This document shows, piece after piece, positions 2,703 to 58,815 of a stretch of DNA of 64,000 nucleotides; the first letter of the stretch is position 1; each line of letters begins with the position of its first letter. The notes under the pieces are model-generated. The model was not told where the DNA came from. It did not search any database and saw only the letters and a program-made list of their open reading frames with translations. The DNA lies in assembly GCA_900109895.1 (NCBI GenBank), contig FOBR01000016.1, positions 62,001 to 126,000 on the forward strand, given 5' to 3'. The translations under genes and the position numbers were made by a program. This DNA comes from a bacterium A37T11. GTDB taxonomy: Bacteria > Bacteroidota > Bacteroidia > Sphingobacteriales > Sphingobacteriaceae.

Positions 2703-5700
2703 TTAAAAAGTCACATTTAATCCGAAAAGGTAGGTTCTTGGCCGTGGGTAGTAACCCACGTCAATACCTGATACCCAAGCATCGGTACCATAACCGATCT
2801 CAGGATCCATACCGTCATATTTGGTAAATGTAAATGGATTTTGTGCCTGCGCGTATATCCGAACCTTGCTGAGGTATTTCCAGCGTACCAATTTTGAAAA
2901 GTCATAACCCAAGGTAATGTTGCTGATCTTTAAAAAATCACCATCTTGCAGATACAAGTCAGAGAACTGGTAATTGATATTGGTTTCGGTAACTCTCGGA
3001 ATGCGGGAAGAGGTTCCTTCACCAGTCCACCGGCCAAGTATTGCAGTGGTGTAATTGGCTTGTTTATTGGCGTAATTGCGGTAAGATTGCACAATTTCAT
3101 TTCCTGCTACGCCATAAGCATTGACGGAAAAATCGAACCCTTTGTAATCCAGGCTTACGTTAAACCCATAGGTCAAATCCGGCATCCCATTACCCAGGTT
3201 TGTTTTATCCAGACTGTTTATTTTACCGTCTGTTACCAGGTCTGCATACCTCACATCACCGGGCTTAACATCAGCTTGCAGAATGCCCTTTCCGGCAGCC
3301 CGCCAATCGTCAATTTCCTGTTGGTTCTGAAACAGCCCATCCGTTTTATACCCCCAGAAATAACCAATCGGGAAGCCGTTTTGGGCGCGGTAAAATTCAT
3401 CAGAATTGTCATACAACATATTGGTCGAACCATGTATAATGCCATCTTCGTTGGGAATTTCACCCACTTTATTTTTATTATAAGCACCGTTCACTCCCAA
3501 TTGGTAGTGAAAGTCGCCAACCTGGCTATTCCAAGTTAATGCCAACTCAACTCCATTATTTTTTACATTCCCTCCATTAATATAAGGTGCTCCTGCGCCT
3601 GCTGTGGCCAGAATGGGGGCTTGTACTAACCAATCCTTGGTTGTTTTGATGTAATAATCAGCCACTACGCCCAATTTATTGTTCAAAAACCTGGCATCCA
3701 AGCCAATATTAGTCTGCTCAGACGTTTCCCATTTGATATCTGGATTTGAGAGCCTGCTTGGATAAGCTCCGGGTACATTGGTTAAGGCAGTACCAAAGTT
3801 ATAATATGCCGCAGGATTGCTGCTTGAATACCCTGTTGATGTATTTATGGGAGATGCGTATTGGAAATCGGAAATATTCTGGTTACCGACCTGTCCCCAG
3901 CTTACCCGAAATTTCAGAAAATTTAGCCAATTAGCGGCACTTTTAGCAAACTCTTCATTGGTTAAAACCCAACCTGCTGAAACTGATGGGAAATATCCCC
4001 ATTGGTTACCTGCGGCAAATTTGGATGACCCATCCGCGCGTAGGGTAGCATTAAATAAATATTTTTCCTGATAGTTATAACCCAGGCGACCAAAATAAGA
4101 AGCCCTTCGATATAAGTTGTCTGGCCGGCCACCGACACTACGTGTTTCCACGAGGTTATCATCATCATCCAAATGCGCCTGACCTGTAGTGTTGTCCAGA
4201 TATGCATGCGCAAAATCGTTAAATTGCGATAGCAAATTCCAGTTTGAGCCAGACAGGTAGGTGCCCTGGTACCTAACCGATTCCATCCCGATCAGTGCAT
4301 CAAAAGCATGGTCTTTGGCTACCGTAAAGCTATAACTTGCCGTGTTGGTCCAGGTTAAGGTATGACCTTTACTCATATTTTGTGATGTAGTGGTATGGTC
4401 GTTATTAAAGGAATAAACCGAGAACTGATAGAGTGGCGTAAAACTCCGGTAATCGCCCGAGAAATAGTTGATCCCAAACACAGACCTGATCTTTAGGTTG
4501 CTGATAGGTTCAAGTTCTGCATACATATCGGCTTGCAGCTTTTGGGCCCCATTGCTGTTGTTAGTATTGGTCATCATGGAACCATAAGGGTTACCGTCGC
4601 CATTATACCAGGGAGAATTGCTCGTATCATTAAACGGATTGTCGTAAATGTTGTTATCACTATATACTGGCGATAAAGGTGAAGTGCCAAAAGCCCCTCT
4701 TAAGGTATTGCTGTATTGATTGCCTACACTGATCCCATTATTTTTGATATAATTGAAATTGAGGTGTTGCCCTACTTTAAGCGCATTTTGATAAAATTTG
4801 TGTTCACTATTGGTCCGGAAGCCATAGCGCTCATAATTTGAGACCGCTTTACCGCCCACGATTCCTTCTTGTGAAAGGTAGTTGAGGGATGTGGCATAGG
4901 TAGAGTTCTCAGAACCACCACTTAAATTAAGGGAATAGTTTTCGGTATTGGCATTATCCTTAAACATGTAATCCATCCAATTAGTATTGGATAATCCTTC
5001 CATGGCGTCAAAATCAATTAAACCAGCGCCTGAATTAAGAGCCTGCTCATTCATGATAGTTTTATACTGATCAGCATTCAGCATTTTTGCTTTGCGCGGC
5101 ACGCTTTGAACACCTTTGTAACCTTCAAATGAAACTTGTCCTTTTCCTTTGGCGCCGGTTTTGGTGGTTACCAAAATTACGCCGTTGGCTGCCTGAGCGC
5201 CATAAATAGCTGCAGATGCTGCATCTTTCAGCACATCGATTGACTGAATATCCGCTGCGTTTAGTGAAGCGACATCACCTTCTATCCCATCAATAATATA
5301 TAGCGGCCCTGAGTTACCGATGGTACCCAGACCACGGATGGTAACCTTCATGTCTGCACCCGGCTGTCCGGATGTGGCAGAAATAGAAACTCCCGATGCC
5401 TGCCCTTGAAGTGCCTGTAAAGGACTGACTTGATTTTGCCGTTGCAACGCGTCGCCACTGACCTGAAGGTTCGCTCCTGTCAGTAATTTTTTCTTCTGTA
5501 CGCCGTACCCTACTACCACGACTTCGTCCAGATCGGCATTGGTGGTCTTTAATAAAATAGTCTGTATGCCTTGTCCGCTTATCGTGTGAATGGCGTCGGC
5601 CATCCCAATAAATGATACGGTCAGCAAATCCCCTGATTTTGCTTCTATGGTAAACCGGCCTTGGTCATCGGTTTGGGCTTGCTTGCCCGTACCATTTACT

Positions 5701-37921: not shown

Positions 37922-38013
37922 TAAAAAGATCAGGAGCGCTGGAGACGCCCCTGAATCAGATTCTGGAAAACCAATAATTGCAGTTAACAATATTTACTAA
38001 TTTTTAAACCAGA
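37922..38013 (-). ncRNA. Candidate antisense sRNA at the first ECF-controlled susC leader
   Basis: A possible RNA of about 92 nt transcribed opposite the susC leader. Its promoter would be TACATTTG (38026-38019, minus strand), its end the hairpin at 37954-37930 followed by TCTTTTT. Sequence and spacing agree with a second candidate at 53819. In Bacteroides fragilis, DonS and related antisense sRNAs occupy this same place, between the anti-sigma gene and the susC homologue, and lower susC expression. The exact transcription start is a guess. Confidence 0.6.
37930..37954 (-). terminator. Hairpin in first susC leader; terminator on antisense strand
   Basis: Arms TCAGGAGCG and CGCCCCTGA with a 7-base loop. 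In the susC mRNA the stem has an A-C mismatch; in the antisense RNA the same position is a G-U pair, so the helix is continuous over 9 pairs and is followed by TCTTTTT. The structure therefore favours the minus strand. Confidence 0.7.
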
Positions 38014-38018
38014 AAAAG

Positions 38019-38026
38019 CAAATGTA
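38019..38026 (-). promoter_or_regulatory. Antisense -7 box over the first susC start codon
   Basis: Plus-strand CAAATGTA, i.e. TACATTTG on the minus strand, a perfect TAnnTTTG overlapping the ATG of susC (38022-38024). The same box covers the start of the other STN-type susC at 53912-53919. No -33 TTG at standard spacing is visible. Confidence 0.5.
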
Positions 38027-51896: not shown

Positions 51897-51916
51897 TAAT
51901 GGCAATCTCCACAGCT

Positions 51917-52477
51917 ATGATAGACTATAAAAAATATACAGATCCTGAACTTTCTACCCTTTTAAACAAAGGTGATAAGTTTGCTTTTTCAGTTGTCTAT
52001 GAACGTTATTTTGAATTGTTATTTCGTCACGCACTACGTATTTTAAAAGACAAAGAGGATGCACAAGATGTTGTTCAGGACGTTTATACAAAACTATGGG
52101 AGAATCACCATCTTATTAATATACAAAATTCTCTGCAAGGGTATTTATATACTTCTACACAAAACGCAGTATTACGTAAGTTACAACGTTCTAAGCAAGG
52201 GGAAAAATATATTGAACAAATACAAAAAACAGTATTTCAGGAACATGGGTCTATAGAATTGAAATTCTATGAAAGTGAACTGAAGAAGATCATTGAACAA
52301 GAAATAGGAAAATTACCTCCAAAAATGCGAAGAGTTTTTGAACTTAGTCGGTTACATTATCATACGACATCTGAAATAGCCGGAAAACTGGGTATTGCTG
52401 AAAATACTGTTAAGCGACAAATCAGCAATGCCATTCACATTTTGCGTAAAAAACTTACGGAGTGGAATGTTTTTTAG
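51917..52477 (+). CDS. ECF sigma factor (FecI-like), second sigma/FecR PUL
   Basis: A 186-residue ECF sigma factor. An earlier ATG at 51899 would add six residues, but the promoter box at 51889-51896 would place it before the transcription start, and the N-terminus MIDYKKYTDPELSTLLNKGD is typical for the family. Region 2 (about 20-85) has KFAFSVVYERYFELLFRHAL and DAQDVVQDVYTKLWENHHL; region 4 (about 125-180) has LPPKMRRVFELSRLHYHTTS and IAGKLGIAENTVKRQISNAI. It drives the following susCD-GH116-GH97 operon under control of FecR. Strongly AT-rich. Confidence 0.94.
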   Translation: MIDYKKYTDPELSTLLNKGDKFAFSVVYERYFELLFRHALRILKDKEDAQDVVQDVYTKLWENHHLINIQNSLQGYLYTSTQNAVLRKLQRSKQGEKYIEQIQKTVFQEHGSIELKFYESELKKIIEQEIGKLPPKMRRVFELSRLHYHTTSEIAGKLGIAENTVKRQISNAIHILRKKLTEWNVF

Positions 52478-52597: not shown

Positions 52598-53767
52598 ATG
52601 ACTAAACAAGAAGCAACAAGTTTAATAGAAAAATATTTGGCTGGTCAATGCAGTGAAGAAGAAAAATGCCTAATCCAAGAGGCTTATATGTCACTTGCAA
52701 AAAATGAAACAACAGAAATCAGTTCTGGAGAGATTGCTGCAATTCAAAAATTCACATGGGAGTCAATCAATGCCAATACCCCATCAAAACCTTATGGAAT
52801 TATAAGCAAAATGCCTATACGGTACCTGTCTATTGCTGCTATTGCATTGATTTGTTTAGCCTTTTCTTTATATTTCTACAATAGAAAAGTTGCAGACAAT
52901 ATTCAGGAAAATCATATTATCATACAACCTAATTTTAACAAAGCCCTACTCACCCTGTCAACCGGAGAATCCATTAACCTTGACAGTAGCAAATCCGGCA
53001 TCCGGATGGATACAGCGCATATTATATATAATGACGGAAGTACAATAAAAAATGTATCCATTGGTAAGTCAAATGGAGGGAATTCAGCCCCCTATTTATT
53101 CAAATTATCGACTCCAAACGGAGCGCAATACCAGGCAACCTTAAGCGATGGAACTAAAGTTTGGCTTAATGCTGCCTCTTCATTAACCTACCCCGCCACA
53201 TTTTCTGGTATGACCAGGACAGTAAGAGTCACCGGAGAAGTGTATTTCAAAATAGCAAATAACCAAACAAAACCGTTCATCGTACTTTCAAAAGATCAGG
53301 AAATTCATGTATTAGGAACAGAATTTAATATTTCCGTTTTTGATGAATTAAATATGATAACAACTACTCTTGTGAGCGGCTCCTTACAAGTGATTAAAAC
53401 GTTGGAAAAACGTGATGACGGTGTTGAGATGAATAGTAAAAACAATATCCTGTTAAAACCAGGAGAACAATCTATATTATCAAAGGATGGATCATTCATA
53501 AAACATCGTACAAATATAGAATCTGTCATTGCTTGGCGATACGGTCAATTTCGCTTTTATGATGAAACGCTTGAATCTGTTATGAACCAAATAAGCCGCT
53601 GGTATAATGTAGCGGTAGAATACCAAGATGAAAGTCTTAAAAAAGAAACTTATTCGGCCATTACCAAACGTTTTGACAAAATTTCCATTTTACTCGGGAT
53701 GCTGGAAAAAACTGGTAAAGCCAAATTTGATATTAAAAATAACAAAATAATTATTTCTAAAAAATGA
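52598..53767 (+). CDS. FecR family anti-sigma factor, second sigma/FecR PUL
   Basis: A 389-residue anti-sigma factor: cytoplasmic sigma-binding part (SLIEKYLAGQCSEEEKCLIQ), TM helix (YLSIAAIALICLAFSLYFY, about 70-88), periplasmic FecR domain (about 165-270: LSTPNGAQYQATLSDGTKVW, VTGEVYFKIANN, VLGTEFNISVFDE) and a C-terminal DUF4974 part (FRFYDETLESVMNQISRWYN). It is 120 bases after its sigma gene. It resembles the FecR at 36717 domain for domain. Confidence 0.95.
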   Translation: MTKQEATSLIEKYLAGQCSEEEKCLIQEAYMSLAKNETTEISSGEIAAIQKFTWESINANTPSKPYGIISKMPIRYLSIAAIALICLAFSLYFYNRKVADNIQENHIIIQPNFNKALLTLSTGESINLDSSKSGIRMDTAHIIYNDGSTIKNVSIGKSNGGNSAPYLFKLSTPNGAQYQATLSDGTKVWLNAASSLTYPATFSGMTRTVRVTGEVYFKIANNQTKPFIVLSKDQEIHVLGTEFNISVFDELNMITTTLVSGSLQVIKTLEKRDDGVEMNSKNNILLKPGEQSILSKDGSFIKHRTNIESVIAWRYGQFRFYDETLESVMNQISRWYNVAVEYQDESLKKETYSAITKRFDKISILLGMLEKTGKAKFDIKNNKIIISKK

Positions 53768-53818
53768 CCAAATGATAAAAATAAATACCTCCTGACTCAG
53801 TCAACCCCGGGGCTTAAA

Positions 53819-53906
53819 CAAAAAATCAGGAACAATTGCAGTGTCCCTGATCTATGCTTAGTTTAACCCCAAATTGCATGTCAAATACTTTTCAAAATTT
53901 AACTAA
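53819..53906 (-). ncRNA. Candidate antisense sRNA at the second ECF-controlled susC leader
   Basis: A possible RNA of about 88 nt opposite the susC leader. Promoter box TACATTTG (53919-53912, minus strand) overlaps the susC ATG; the hairpin at 53850-53826 followed by TTTTTTGTTT would end it. Layout, length and box agree with the candidate at 37922, and the stem differs by compensatory changes. Comparable to DonS-type RNAs of Bacteroides. The start site is approximate. Confidence 0.65.
53826..53850 (-). terminator. Hairpin in second susC leader; terminator on antisense strand
   Basis: Arms TCAGGAACA and TGTCCCTGA, 7-base loop. On the minus strand nine continuous pairs including one G-U are followed by six T, then GTTT, a good intrinsic terminator. 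On the susC strand the G-U pair becomes an A-C mismatch and there is no T tract. Confidence 0.75.
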
Positions 53907-53911
53907 GCAAA

Positions 53912-53919
53912 CAAATGTA
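53912..53919 (-). promoter_or_regulatory. Antisense -7 box over the second susC start codon
   Basis: Plus-strand CAAATGTA (TACATTTG on the minus strand) overlaps the susC ATG at 53915-53917, exactly as at 38019. A TTTG lies on the minus strand at 53938-53935 with a 15-base spacer, shorter than the usual 19. Confidence 0.5.
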
Positions 53920-56900
53920 TAAAAAAATTACAGACAAAGATGCTATGCCCTTACAGCTGCATCAAAAAATTTTAAGGGTTATGAAAATTACTACCCTACT
54001 TTTGTTTATTATATGTATACAGGTGAGTGCGCGCAGTTTTGCGCAGCAGATCACGTTTGTTAAGAAAAAGGCCACATTCGTGGAAATTTTTCAGGAGATT
54101 AATAAGCAAACCGATTATAATGTGTTTTGGTCTCCAGGCCTACTTAGAGGCGTTAAGCCTGTGGATGTGAGTTTTAAAAATACAACTGTCACAGATGCCC
54201 TACGACAGGTTTTAACTAAACAAGGACTGGATTTTTCAATCGAGGATCACACGGTTTTAATTTCAGCACTTCAGAAGTCTCTGGTTGCCATACAGCCGAA
54301 AACGCTGCATGGAATAATTACTAGTGAAAATGGTGAACCCCTGATGTCTGCTAGCGTGAAACTTCAAGGTACCAATAAAGAAGTGCTTAGTAATAGGCTT
54401 GGCGAATTTAATATAGATGCCTCTGTAGATGATATCATACAAATCTCTTTTGTTGGATATGAAACAAAAAGTTATAAAGTAAGAAGCGAAAATAATATCC
54501 GGATAATCCTTGTGCCCATTTCCTCTGAACTTGATCAAGTTGTAGTCATAGGTTATGGAACTCAAAAAAAGGCCGACCTAACCGGTGCCGTGGGTGCTGT
54601 AAATGTGGAAAAAGCCCTTAATTCTCGTCCAGTTACTAATGTACAAGAATTATTGGCGGGCTCAATACCTGGGCTGAACGTGTCGAAAAGTTCGGGGGCA
54701 GTAGGATCTGGCGCATCATTAAATATCCGTGGTACCTCAACGATTGGTGGGAGTTCAGGGGTATTGGTATTGATTGACGGTTTTCCAGGAAATATTTATA
54801 CACTTAATTATAATGATATAGAGAGTGTTTCAGTACTTAAAGATGCTTCTTCTGCAGCCATTTATGGATCGAGGGCAGCCAATGGTGTGGCCCTTATTAC
54901 TACTAAAAAAGGAAAGTCTGCCGGAAAAGCCCAAATTGAGCTCACCTCATCAGTCGGCTTCCAAAAACCTCAATTTTTAGTAGACTATGTCGGGGCAGCC
55001 GATTATATGAAATTATGGGATCAGGCTCTTGTCAATGACGGAAAAGATCCACTATATGGACAGCAAGGACTTGATGACCTGGCTTCAGGTAAATATTCCG
55101 ATAATAAATGGTATAAAGATATTTATAAAAAAAGCACGGCTATAACTGATCATTCTTTATCAGTTGCCGGTGGTAATGATGTCATTACCTATCGGCTTTC
55201 TGGCGCATATGATTATCAAGACGGGACACTTCCAACTAATAATTATAGCAAATATTTAATTAGGCCAAATATGAACATGAAGCTATCTGACAAAATATCT
55301 GTAGATGCAAATATTCAATATACAGAAACCTATATCCTGCAACCAGAAAAAGGAACGGAAAACTGGCAATCAGAGGCCACGCGTGCAGCTCCTATAAATC
55401 CGATTTATACTCCTTCAGGACAATATGCCATTGGATCGTCGATCGTTGGAAATCCAGTTGCTGCAGTTAATGAAGGAGGTTATAACAAAAGCCGGTATAA
55501 AGAATTATTTGGAGTGTTAAGCTTAAATTATTCGCCACTTAAAGACTGGAATATCAAAGGCAGTTTCTCCCGTTATACCTATGACCAGCGGACTACTGCC
55601 CGTGTTTCATCTTATAATCTTTACAATGATGACGGCAGTATAGCGGCACAAAAGAATATCGTAACCGGTATTCAAGAAACCTTAAACAGTCAATGGAGAA
55701 ATACCTTACAAGCCACCACAGATTATTTTTACAATTTAAATAAACACCATTTTAAAGTACTTGGCGGGTATTCTCAGGAATACTATAAAACAGAAGGCTT
55801 CAATGCTTATCGGGATAATCTTCCATTTGATGACATTGATGTGCTGGATGTTGGTTCAGCTTCTAATATGCAAAACGGTGGTAGTGCAAGCGATGTAGCA
55901 ATTCAATCGTTTTTTGGCCGATTAAATTATGATTTTGATGAAAAATACCTTTTTCAGGCCAATATCCGTTCAGATGGTTCCTCTAGATTTGGGGATGGAC
56001 ATAAATGGGGTACTTTTCCATCATTCTCTGCAGGATGGAATATCCACAAAGAATCTTTCTTTAAGGTAAACTGGATATCACAATTGAAGTTGCGGGCTTC
56101 TTGGGGTATTTTGGGGGATGCTGAAAAGGTAGGCTATTATGCCACTGCACAAACGTTAACCTATAATCCTAGTATCTATGGTTTCGGAGGTTCTGTAGTT
56201 GCTGGTGCCTATAATAGTTTAGCTATTGATCCAAATATTACTTGGGAGCGTTCTAAACAAACGGATATTGGATTGGACGCAGGCTTATTTGATCAAAAAA
56301 TAAGCCTTGGCGTAGATTATTTTTATAATAAACGGGATAACATCTTGTACGCCCCACCTGTATCTGTGGAATTCGGTTTGTCCGGTCCTGTGCGTAACCT
56401 ATTAAAAATGGACAATAAAGGTTGGGAATTTTCAGCAGGATATGAAGATAGAATCTCAGATTTTAATTGGGGTATTTCCATGAATCTGGCATTTTCCAAA
56501 AACAAAGTGACCGACTTGGGTGGTACTGGACCCTGGATTGCAAGTAATAGTTATTCTGATGTAGGTACACAATATCAAATGTCTTACGGTCTTATTAGTA
56601 CTGGGTTGTTCAAAGACGATGCCGATGTTGCCAGTGTTGATCAAGGATCTAATATTTTTCCTGGAAATATAAAATACAAGGATTTGGATGATAATAGTGT
56701 TATTGATGGCAATGATCGTGCGGTGTTAAATGATAAAGTTCCATTGAATTATGGATCCGCGCTTCACTTTGGATGGAAACAATTTGATATTTCTGCAAAC
56801 ATCTACGGAAAATTAAATTATTATGGTTATGCTGAAAGTGTCGCCTTCGCAGCTTCACAAAATGCACGTCCATGGGCATTGGATAATTGGACACCTGATA

Positions 56901-57184
56901 ATTTGGATGCCACGTATCCTAGACTTTCCAGTCAATACACTTCTAATGATACTAAATATTCAAGTTATTGGTTGAAAAAGGCTGATTACTTAAAAATACA
57001 AAATATGCAGATGGGGTATATTTTTTCAACTAATTTATTGAACAAAATAAATATAAATTATCTGCGAATATTTATATCAGTCCAAAATCTGGCTACCATT
57101 ACTGGATACCCGGGGTTTGACCCTGAAGGAGGTGTTTACCCACTATCCAGAACTTATTCATTTGGCGTGAATGTTAAATTTTAA
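53915..57184 (+). CDS. SusC family transporter with STN domain (PUL C)
   Basis: A 1089-residue TonB-dependent transducer-transporter. The N-terminus (MYKKITDKDAMPLQLHQKIL, then hydrophobic MKITTLLLFIICIQVSA) leads to an STN domain (about 46-118, KATFVEIFQEINKQTDYNVF), a carboxypeptidase-like domain (about 130-208), the signature SELDQVVVIGYGTQKKADLT (about 202-221), a plug and a barrel. It signals to the FecR/ECF pair upstream. It shares the MYKK start with the SusC at 38022. A 60-base sample (55261-55320) has 18 G or C, lower than any other gene sampled. Confidence 0.95.
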   Translation: MYKKITDKDAMPLQLHQKILRVMKITTLLLFIICIQVSARSFAQQITFVKKKATFVEIFQEINKQTDYNVFWSPGLLRGVKPVDVSFKNTTVTDALRQVLTKQGLDFSIEDHTVLISALQKSLVAIQPKTLHGIITSENGEPLMSASVKLQGTNKEVLSNRLGEFNIDASVDDIIQISFVGYETKSYKVRSENNIRIILVPISSELDQVVVIGYGTQKKADLTGAVGAVNVEKALNSRPVTNVQELLAGSIPGLNVSKSSGAVGSGASLNIRGTSTIGGSSGVLVLIDGFPGNIYTLNYNDIESVSVLKDASSAAIYGSRAANGVALITTKKGKSAGKAQIELTSSVGFQKPQFLVDYVGAADYMKLWDQALVNDGKDPLYGQQGLDDLASGKYSDNKWYKDIYKKSTAITDHSLSVAGGNDVITYRLSGAYDYQDGTLPTNNYSKYLIRPNMNMKLSDKISVDANIQYTETYILQPEKGTENWQSEATRAAPINPIYTPSGQYAIGSSIVGNPVAAVNEGGYNKSRYKELFGVLSLNYSPLKDWNIKGSFSRYTYDQRTTARVSSYNLYNDDGSIAAQKNIVTGIQETLNSQWRNTLQATTDYFYNLNKHHFKVLGGYSQEYYKTEGFNAYRDNLPFDDIDVLDVGSASNMQNGGSASDVAIQSFFGRLNYDFDEKYLFQANIRSDGSSRFGDGHKWGTFPSFSAGWNIHKESFFKVNWISQLKLRASWGILGDAEKVGYYATAQTLTYNPSIYGFGGSVVAGAYNSLAIDPNITWERSKQTDIGLDAGLFDQKISLGVDYFYNKRDNILYAPPVSVEFGLSGPVRNLLKMDNKGWEFSAGYEDRISDFNWGISMNLAFSKNKVTDLGGTGPWIASNSYSDVGTQYQMSYGLISTGLFKDDADVASVDQGSNIFPGNIKYKDLDDNSVIDGNDRAVLNDKVPLNYGSALHFGWKQFDISANIYGKLNYYGYAESVAFAASQNARPWALDNWTPDNLDATYPRLSSQYTSNDTKYSSYWLKKADYLKIQNMQMGYIFSTNLLNKININYLRIFISVQNLATITGYPGFDPEGGVYPLSRTYSFGVNVKF

Positions 57185-57189
57185 TCAAC

Positions 57190-58815
57190 ATGAAGAAACA
57201 GATCATACATCTTACCACGATTGCCAGCCTTTTTTTAATAAGTGCGTGTAGTAAATTTCTCGATCGGGATCCCTTGTCTCAGGCTGCAGAAAATACCTAT
57301 TGGCAAACGGCTGAGGATGCTTCAGCCGGATTGAACGCAGTATATACTACTCTTCCCAATTCAAGAGATTTCTGGCGGGATTGCGAAAGTGACAATTCTG
57401 CTATGACAAATGCTTACGGTGAAGGAGGGTTAGGATATGTCGGCATGGGAAGCTTTTCGGCTACCGATAATTACGTGTTGGAAGAATGGAAATACGACTT
57501 TATCCGTACAGAACTTTATTTTATTGACAAGCTAAAAGGCATGAATATCGATGCCAGCATCAAAACACAGTATGATGCTGAGGCGAGGTTTATGCTGGCC
57601 ATGCGCTATTTTAGAATGGTTCAGCATTTTGGAGATGTTCCACTTATTAAAGAAAAGCCTGTAGACCTTGATTCGGCAGCTCTTCCACGTAGCCCCAAGC
57701 AAGATGTCTTGAACTATGCGCTCGAAAATGTAGAGACAGCCATCGCAGCCGGTCTTACTGACAAGGATGAATCCGGACATATTACCAATGCTGCCGCCTA
57801 TATGCTTCGTGCGAATATTTATCTATATATGGCCAGTTATAAAAAATTTCATGATGGCACTGATAACCCTGCATTGTGGAAAGAAGCGGCCGCTTCGGCG
57901 GATAAAGTAACGGCTATGGGATATGCGCTGGAAAGCGATTATTCTTCCCTTTTCAAGCATGAGTCCAATAATAACAATAGTGAGGTCATCCTGGCCTATC
58001 AATATGTGAAGGACAAGATTACTCATATATTACCACTTTTGGCATCCCCTGCAGGAACGGGTATAACCGGTCAGGGTTGGGCCAGTTTTTGTCCTGGTAG
58101 AGACTTGGTGGATTCCTACGAATGTACGGATGGCAAATCCATTCAGGAGTCTTCCATATATGATAAGAATAATCCTTGGAATAACAGAGATAAACGCCTT
58201 AAACAAACCTTTATGTTGCCGGGAGTTGACGTGTTGCGGCCGGATGGTACTTATAGCCCTTACCAACCCCATCCATCGTATAACATGACCGAAAAAATGA
58301 ATAGCGAAGGAGGTGGCCTTACCGGATTTATGTACCTTAAGTTCAATGAACCTACCTTTACACAACCTGATCTTAGCTATACCAACTGGCCCATATACCG
58401 GTATTCAGAAACGCTGCTTATTCTTGCTGAAGCCTTGAATGAGTATGACCCTACTAATCCAAGGATTGTTTGGGCCATAAATCAGGTAAGAACAAGAGCA
58501 GGACTACCAGGAGTAGATGCCTATTTGGGCAACCAGGAAATAATGCGGACGATTATCCGGAATGAAAGGAGGCATGAATTTGTAGCAGAGCACAAGCGTT
58601 ATTTCGATATCCTTCGTTGGAAAACAGCAGAAGATGTACTAACTACTATATATGGTATCAACAGCAATGTGAGTGATGCGATAGGCGACTATACCAAGCC
58701 CAAATTTGTAGCTCAGGTACGTACTTTTAATGCTAGCAAACATTATCTTTGGCCCGTGCCCCAAACTGCAATTGATAAAAATCCGAATTTACTTCCTCAA
58801 AACCCAAATTGGTAA
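57190..58815 (+). CDS. SusD/RagB family lipoprotein (PUL C)
   Basis: A 541-residue SusD partner, 5 bases after susC. Lipoprotein signal TIASLFLISACSKFLDRDPL (lipid Cys near residue 20), EARFMLAMRYFRMVQHFGDV, YRYSETLLILAEALNEYDP, NERRHEFVAEHKRYFDILRW and a C-terminus ending in NPNW are all diagnostic. Surface substrate-binding lid of the importer for PUL C. Confidence 0.95.
   Translation: MKKQIIHLTTIASLFLISACSKFLDRDPLSQAAENTYWQTAEDASAGLNAVYTTLPNSRDFWRDCESDNSAMTNAYGEGGLGYVGMGSFSATDNYVLEEWKYDFIRTELYFIDKLKGMNIDASIKTQYDAEARFMLAMRYFRMVQHFGDVPLIKEKPVDLDSAALPRSPKQDVLNYALENVETAIAAGLTDKDESGHITNAAAYMLRANIYLYMASYKKFHDGTDNPALWKEAAASADKVTAMGYALESDYSSLFKHESNNNNSEVILAYQYVKDKITHILPLLASPAGTGITGQGWASFCPGRDLVDSYECTDGKSIQESSIYDKNNPWNNRDKRLKQTFMLPGVDVLRPDGTYSPYQPHPSYNMTEKMNSEGGGLTGFMYLKFNEPTFTQPDLSYTNWPIYRYSETLLILAEALNEYDPTNPRIVWAINQVRTRAGLPGVDAYLGNQEIMRTIIRNERRHEFVAEHKRYFDILRWKTAEDVLTTIYGINSNVSDAIGDYTKPKFVAQVRTFNASKHYLWPVPQTAIDKNPNLLPQNPNW

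Follow-up and report, generated by a model that had tools for sequence, protein, structure and literature searches.

The closest described relatives of the element reported here are the antisense RNAs of PULs, which the reports consulted describe by RNA-seq in gut Bacteroides, species by species. The DonS family is reported to comprise antisense RNAs of 78–128 nt that are encoded divergently to susC in Bacteroides and lower susC expression, and DonS-like RNAs to serve PULs for mucosa-derived glycans (PMC7366714, citing PMID 27353652). DonS and DonS-like PUL antisense RNAs are described for Bacteroides fragilis in two reports (PMC7366714, PMC9723704). Bacteroides thetaiotaomicron has 32 PUL-associated antisense RNAs, which overlap susC homologues (PMC10994844). 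The FopS RNAs, which are multicopy and end in a terminator hairpin, repress susC translation; they are about 65–70 nt long and mostly trans-acting, carry a conserved seed (R1) in a single-stranded 5′ end (PMC11697453) and form an Rfam family.

The window, that is, the whole stretch of 64,000 nucleotides analysed here (bacterium A37T11, Sphingobacteriaceae; contig FOBR01000016.1, positions 62,001 to 126,000), contains two fecR–susC gaps of similar layout. The features of the second gap (53818–53919) and of its PUL are as follows:

51899 to 52477, plus strand: ECF sigma factor gene (Pfam)
52598 to 53767, plus strand: fecR-type anti-sigma gene with FecR and FecR_C domains (Pfam)
53820 to 53907, minus strand: predicted antisense sRNA of about 88 nt (R2 covariance model match and fold z −4.19)
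53820 to 53825, minus strand: T-tract (six T) of the intrinsic terminator (sequence)
53823 to 53853, minus strand: P2, the terminator hairpin, with its core TCAGGGACA-CTGCAAT-TGTTCCTGA at 53850–53826
53856 to 53908, minus strand: P1, the 5′ hairpin, with the closing stem GCUUAGUU.../...AACUAAGC and an inward extension (fold; P1 score p = 0.01; U–G wobbles on the antisense strand)
53912 to 53919, minus strand: putative antisense −7 promoter box TACATTTG (TAnnTTTG), across the susC start codon (sequence)
53915 to 57184, plus strand: susC homologue (STN, carboxypeptidase-regulatory and TonB plug domains; Pfam), the presumed cis target
57190 to 58815, plus strand: susD homologue (Pfam)

The minus-strand box TACATTTG, read from 53919 to 53912, overlaps the susC ATG at 53915–53917, and the TCAGGGACA/TGTTCCTGA hairpin begins about 60 bases beyond it. 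This hairpin (TCAGG-G-ACA-CTGCAAT-TGT-T-CCTGA, minus strand, 53850–53826) is G+C-rich and runs, on its own strand, into a T-tract, as is characteristic of an intrinsic terminator. Both ends of the sRNA are predicted, the 5′ end being placed 5–8 nt past the box and the 3′ end at the T-tract. We consider it quite probable that the hairpin is the 3′ terminator of a DonS-type gene for a cis-antisense small RNA, which would be driven from the TAnnTTTG box and would repress susC–susD until the ECF sigma factor is released.

Like DonS as described, the predicted RNA is short, lies opposite susC and is encoded divergently, and many PULs per genome have one; its length, about 88 nt here and 94 nt at the median of 58 loci (range 61–132 nt, all ends being predicted), falls at both of these values within the 78–128 nt of DonS (PMC7366714). 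Unlike DonS, it occurs in a host outside Bacteroides, with Pedobacter, Parapedobacter and similar Sphingobacteriaceae as relatives, and in about 58 detected copies; the second-gap PUL, which also encodes a GH116 enzyme (Pfam), is not known to be a mucosal-glycan PUL. The likeness to DonS is one of layout and length, and the covariation-supported two-hairpin fold is described here. The B. thetaiotaomicron RNAs likewise overlap susC homologues, but they were seen by RNA-seq, whereas the present ones are predicted from sequence (PMC10994844). In being multicopy and ending in a terminator hairpin the element resembles FopS, from which it differs in length, presumed cis target and 5′ end (PMC11697453). 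Membership in FopS was rejected: Rfam returned no match in ten loci at E up to 1, and the predicted fold has the 5′ end base-paired. On the window, Rfam gave no match at the gathering score. The kind of RNA is thus already known from the DonS-like PUL antisense RNAs, which makes the locus less novel than the earlier note had implied. What is new is the much larger number of members, their presence in hosts other than gut Bacteroides and the two-hairpin fold that they share, which is absent from Rfam; neither this fold nor a spread beyond Bacteroides was found in the consulted reports on PUL antisense RNAs that followed the founding DonS paper.

The gene order around the first gap is sigma, fecR, susC, as around the second, and the gap holds another copy:

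37923 to 38026, minus strand: first-gap copy, with the box at 38026–38019, the 5′ hairpin at 38014–37961, the terminator hairpin at 37954–37930 and the tail to 37923

Its box, again TACATTTG, covers the susC ATG at 38022, so that in both gaps (53919–53912 and 38026–38019) the box lies on the susC ATG, as the earlier note had read it. The first-gap terminator hairpin (TCAGG-G-GCG-TCTCCAG-CGC-T-CCTGA, minus strand, 37954–37930) shares with the second the TCAGG/CCTGA base, the G–U pair, three upper pairs and a 7-base loop, and two upper-stem pairs are changed on both sides between the gaps (GCG/CGC versus ACA/TGT), both as described in that note. Of its further measurements, the spacing of about 64 bases from box to TCAGG applies to the first gap (64) but is 61 in the second, and the six-T tail belongs to the second gap (53825–53820), the first ending in TCTTTTT. 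The remainder of the two gaps, which had been called unlike, does differ in sequence but not in structure, as both spacers fold as a long 5′ hairpin, a stem that had been overlooked.

When 26 mixed sequences were aligned with plain MAFFT, the terminator stem fell out of register, so covariance modelling was begun from ten alike loci and then widened. The first model (R1), built from these ten, matched 43 gaps with E values of 0.09 or less, and the second (R2) was built from those 43. The first window gap, which is outside the R1 training set, was matched by R1 at 37922–38026 (minus strand, E 3.7e-6); the second, which is outside the R2 training set, was matched by R2 at 53818–53919 (minus strand, 46.2 bits). 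The genome (5.09 Mb in 60 contigs) has 91 FecR_C matches, some of them within susC frames; 5 kb around 80 of these were taken as the FecR set and the next gene was located in each. R2 matches 58 of these 80 loci at E up to 0.1. Searched against the whole genome, it gave 46 matches at E up to 1, all 46 antisense and downstream of FecR, in gaps that make up 0.23% of the genome; on a 400 kb FecR-free control it returned nothing under E 3. At one matched locus (L059, match at 3289–3394, minus strand) a NusG-domain gene (PF02357; L059:2552–3079, plus strand) separates fecR from susC, and the antisense element stays by the downstream gene, not by fecR.

The earlier note had considered that other sigma/FecR-controlled PULs of the genome might lack the hairpin, or that equal T-tract hairpins might occur at random intergenic places. 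Of the 67 gaps that span 85 bases or more, 42 have a strong antisense T-tract hairpin, as against 1/67 on the sense strand, 0 of 1,540 shuffled sequences and 0 or 1 of 71 in each set of equal-length control stretches. Missing hairpins partly reflect lack of room, since none was found on the antisense strand in the ten gaps shorter than 85 bases. Several FecR–susC pairs with a short gap and no hairpin (L013, L062, L071, L074, L079 and L085–L088) perhaps form another class of FecR/TonB pair. Equal hairpins at random intergenic places are rare: outside frames, the 400 kb control of the same genome has 24 downstream of a gene in the same orientation and 9 more, of which several are the reverse side of two-way terminators. 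At the susC start, 43 of 67 gaps have the antisense TAnnTTTG box; it occurs at 11 of 536 nearby positions taken as a control and at 10 of 312 starts of other genes. For some of the 80 loci the first ATG was taken as the start codon, which blurs the position of the box in a few of them.

These counts bear on a simpler reading, in which the hairpin just halts stray antisense transcription ahead of fecR and there is no regulatory RNA. A hairpin with a T-tract suffices for intrinsic termination, and covariation of the terminator stem between unrelated loci would be expected anyway. However, the promoter box is dedicated and conserved, P1 covaries (see below) though termination does not need it, and the gap hairpins differ from the generic terminators of the genome: they have a purine-rich 5′ arm and GTG..CAC flanking the loop, which is found in 38% of them and in 0% of 24 generic terminators. 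We therefore regard a plain terminator as very unlikely. The GTG..CAC likeness of gap terminators is also seen in other families and exceeds what termination needs.

When the loci are listed by their box, an inverted repeat appears in which an arm just past the box pairs with an arm just before the terminator. Examples of these P1 arms are GTTTGGATA/TATCCGGAC and GCTGGTTAA/TTGACCAGC, and in the second window gap GCTTAGTT/AACTAAGC; in 28 of 55 loci the best P1-type stem reaches p ≤0.05 when compared with shuffles, and the loop varies from about 12 to 59 bases. Changes on both sides were counted at 18 of the 19 model pairs in the 43 training sequences, at 19 of 19 in 63 matches (a few of them spurious) and, across the 58 matches in other genomes, at 18 of 19; shuffles and slid structures fell far under these counts. 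The earlier note had proposed that structure rather than sequence is conserved and had set an alignment of the fecR–susC gaps for covariation as the check, and the two-sided changes at all 19 pairs bear it out. The antisense sRNA layout that it proposed is supported; the two copies alone would not have sufficed, and the kind of RNA was known. Because the alignments behind the pair counts were fitted to the covariance model and lean towards it, more weight falls on wobble counts, which are strand-neutral: a G–U pair on one strand reads as A–C on the opposite strand, and the scan scored both alike inside a stem. Read as antisense RNA, the internal wobbles of the terminator stem are 54 G–U and 1 A–C, and those of P1 are 93 G–U and 12 A–C, compared with 6242 and 3713 in shuffles. 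In 56 of 58 loci the antisense RNA has a more stable predicted fold than the complementary strand. The wobble bias, together with covariation of both stems, argues that the RNA that folds is the antisense one. An encoded peptide was dismissed as the common theme, an ORF of at least 12 aa being found in just 6 of the 58 sRNAs.

The same counts weigh on two readings that place the function elsewhere. The inverted repeats could work in the sense susC mRNA, as an attenuator or a structure of its leader, where they also give a weak hairpin; but it is the antisense side that carries the T-tract, the wobbles become A–C mismatches in sense, and folding in sense is weak (z of −1.3 and −1.6, against −4.19 for the whole antisense RNA of the second gap and −5.04 for that of the first). 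They could alternatively belong to a DNA operator or to the ECF promoter and be inverted repeats by happenstance, for the region between the P1 arms may hold the sense promoter; neither the variable loop length (about 12–59 bases) nor the bias of G–U over A–C is expected of DNA sites. Both readings were dismissed on wobble asymmetry and folding, and we hold an attenuator to be extremely improbable and give an operator just as slight a chance.

Returning to the cis-antisense RNA, we suggest that the housekeeping polymerase would start from a TAnnTTTG −7 promoter located over the susC start codon on the opposite strand and would transcribe about 88 nt back across the susC leader, terminating at the hairpin ahead of fecR. 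By base-pairing over its length with the susC leader, beginning some 8 bases before the ATG, the RNA would lower susC–susD expression until FecR frees its cognate ECF sigma factor, at which point sense transcription would prevail. Repression might proceed through a block of translation, decay or colliding transcription, among which the sequence does not discriminate. Counting against repression, a positive correlation with the cognate susC is reported for some of the PUL antisense RNAs of B. thetaiotaomicron (PMC10994844). No conserved −33 element was found upstream of the antisense boxes, and the strength of the putative antisense promoter is therefore uncertain. An A/T-rich run lies immediately upstream of the antisense −7 box. 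The promoter might also act by itself, through transcriptional interference with the sense ECF promoter that it faces, the RNA being a by-product. A sense polymerase must cross the antisense promoter at the susC start, and the position of the box is conserved; yet both stems of the RNA are under selection, and a by-product would need nothing beyond a terminator. Interference as the whole explanation thus seems to us unlikely, though less so than a plain terminator.

The element extends well beyond this genome. R2 matches were obtained in 47 of 81 genomes of the family, covering 16 of 25 genera, and in 11 of 198 genomes sampled over the phylum, 5 of which, the own genome included, belong to the same family. 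The genomes searched yielded no other species of the genus. The match lies between susC and fecR in 43 of the 43 cases examined in other genomes and in 29 of 29 in named genomes, which include Parapedobacter, Pedobacter, Mucilaginibacter, Daejeonella, Sphingobacterium and Chitinophaga as well as Flavihumibacter, Parabacteroides, Mariniphaga, Arenibacter and Sinomicrobium. The fecR–susC element is thus present in Sphingobacteriaceae, Chitinophagaceae, Flavobacteriaceae and Bacteroidales; in the last, the 5′ stem is kept with different letters (for example, GTTAATAC/GTATTGAC) and reaches p ≤0.05 in 7 of 11. R2 found no match in the searched genomes of Larkinella, Dyadobacter, Spirosoma, Phocaeicola plebeius and Flavobacterium subsaxonicum. 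Box and hairpin also occur at close susC relatives in Pedobacter, Chitinophaga and Flavihumibacter. Among relatives of the second-gap susC, that of Chitinophagaceae bacterium DXS has the hairpin and lacks the exact box, and that of Sphingobacterium does not have the box and hairpin. Matches in Bacteroidaceae are weak and lie at a fecR–susC gap in 4 of 15 cases, the rest being elsewhere, so we make no claim on Bacteroides itself. Five of the weak Bacteroidaceae matches (L326, L327, L328, L333 and L334), away from susC and fecR, carry a TAnnTTTG-like box with a T-tract hairpin after it and are possibly unrelated small RNA genes. The layout, the covarying two-hairpin antisense fold and the strict tie to sigma/FecR-controlled susC hold across genomes.

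About 20 loci (among L009–L088; for example, L067, L070 and L080) have nearly identical 5′ RNA sequences of the GTTTGGATAGTTAA type, and at least 10 identical bases in the 5′ half are shared by 124 of 1,653 locus pairs, compared with 9 when shuffled; cross-action between PULs via these shared sequences is therefore possible. A wider reading, which we find doubtful, is that one ancient, phylum-wide RNA family travels with sigma/FecR/susC modules, that its fold (a stem sequestering the 5′ end and a GUG-loop-CAC terminator) is selected beyond antisense pairing, for example for protein binding, and that the shared GTTTGGATAGTTAA-like 5′ sequences act on the leaders of other PULs.

Together, about 58 of roughly 80 FecR-controlled sugar-import operons of this genome carry the element, and a mode of repression known in gut Bacteroides would thereby extend to them. 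With a covariance model that detects such RNAs from sequence, they can be annotated across several orders of Bacteroidota. Many sigma/FecR-controlled PULs have this layout as a standard component, with a predicted fold concrete enough to test, and it renders testable the question of why operons already under a sigma/anti-sigma switch would have an antisense RNA of their own.
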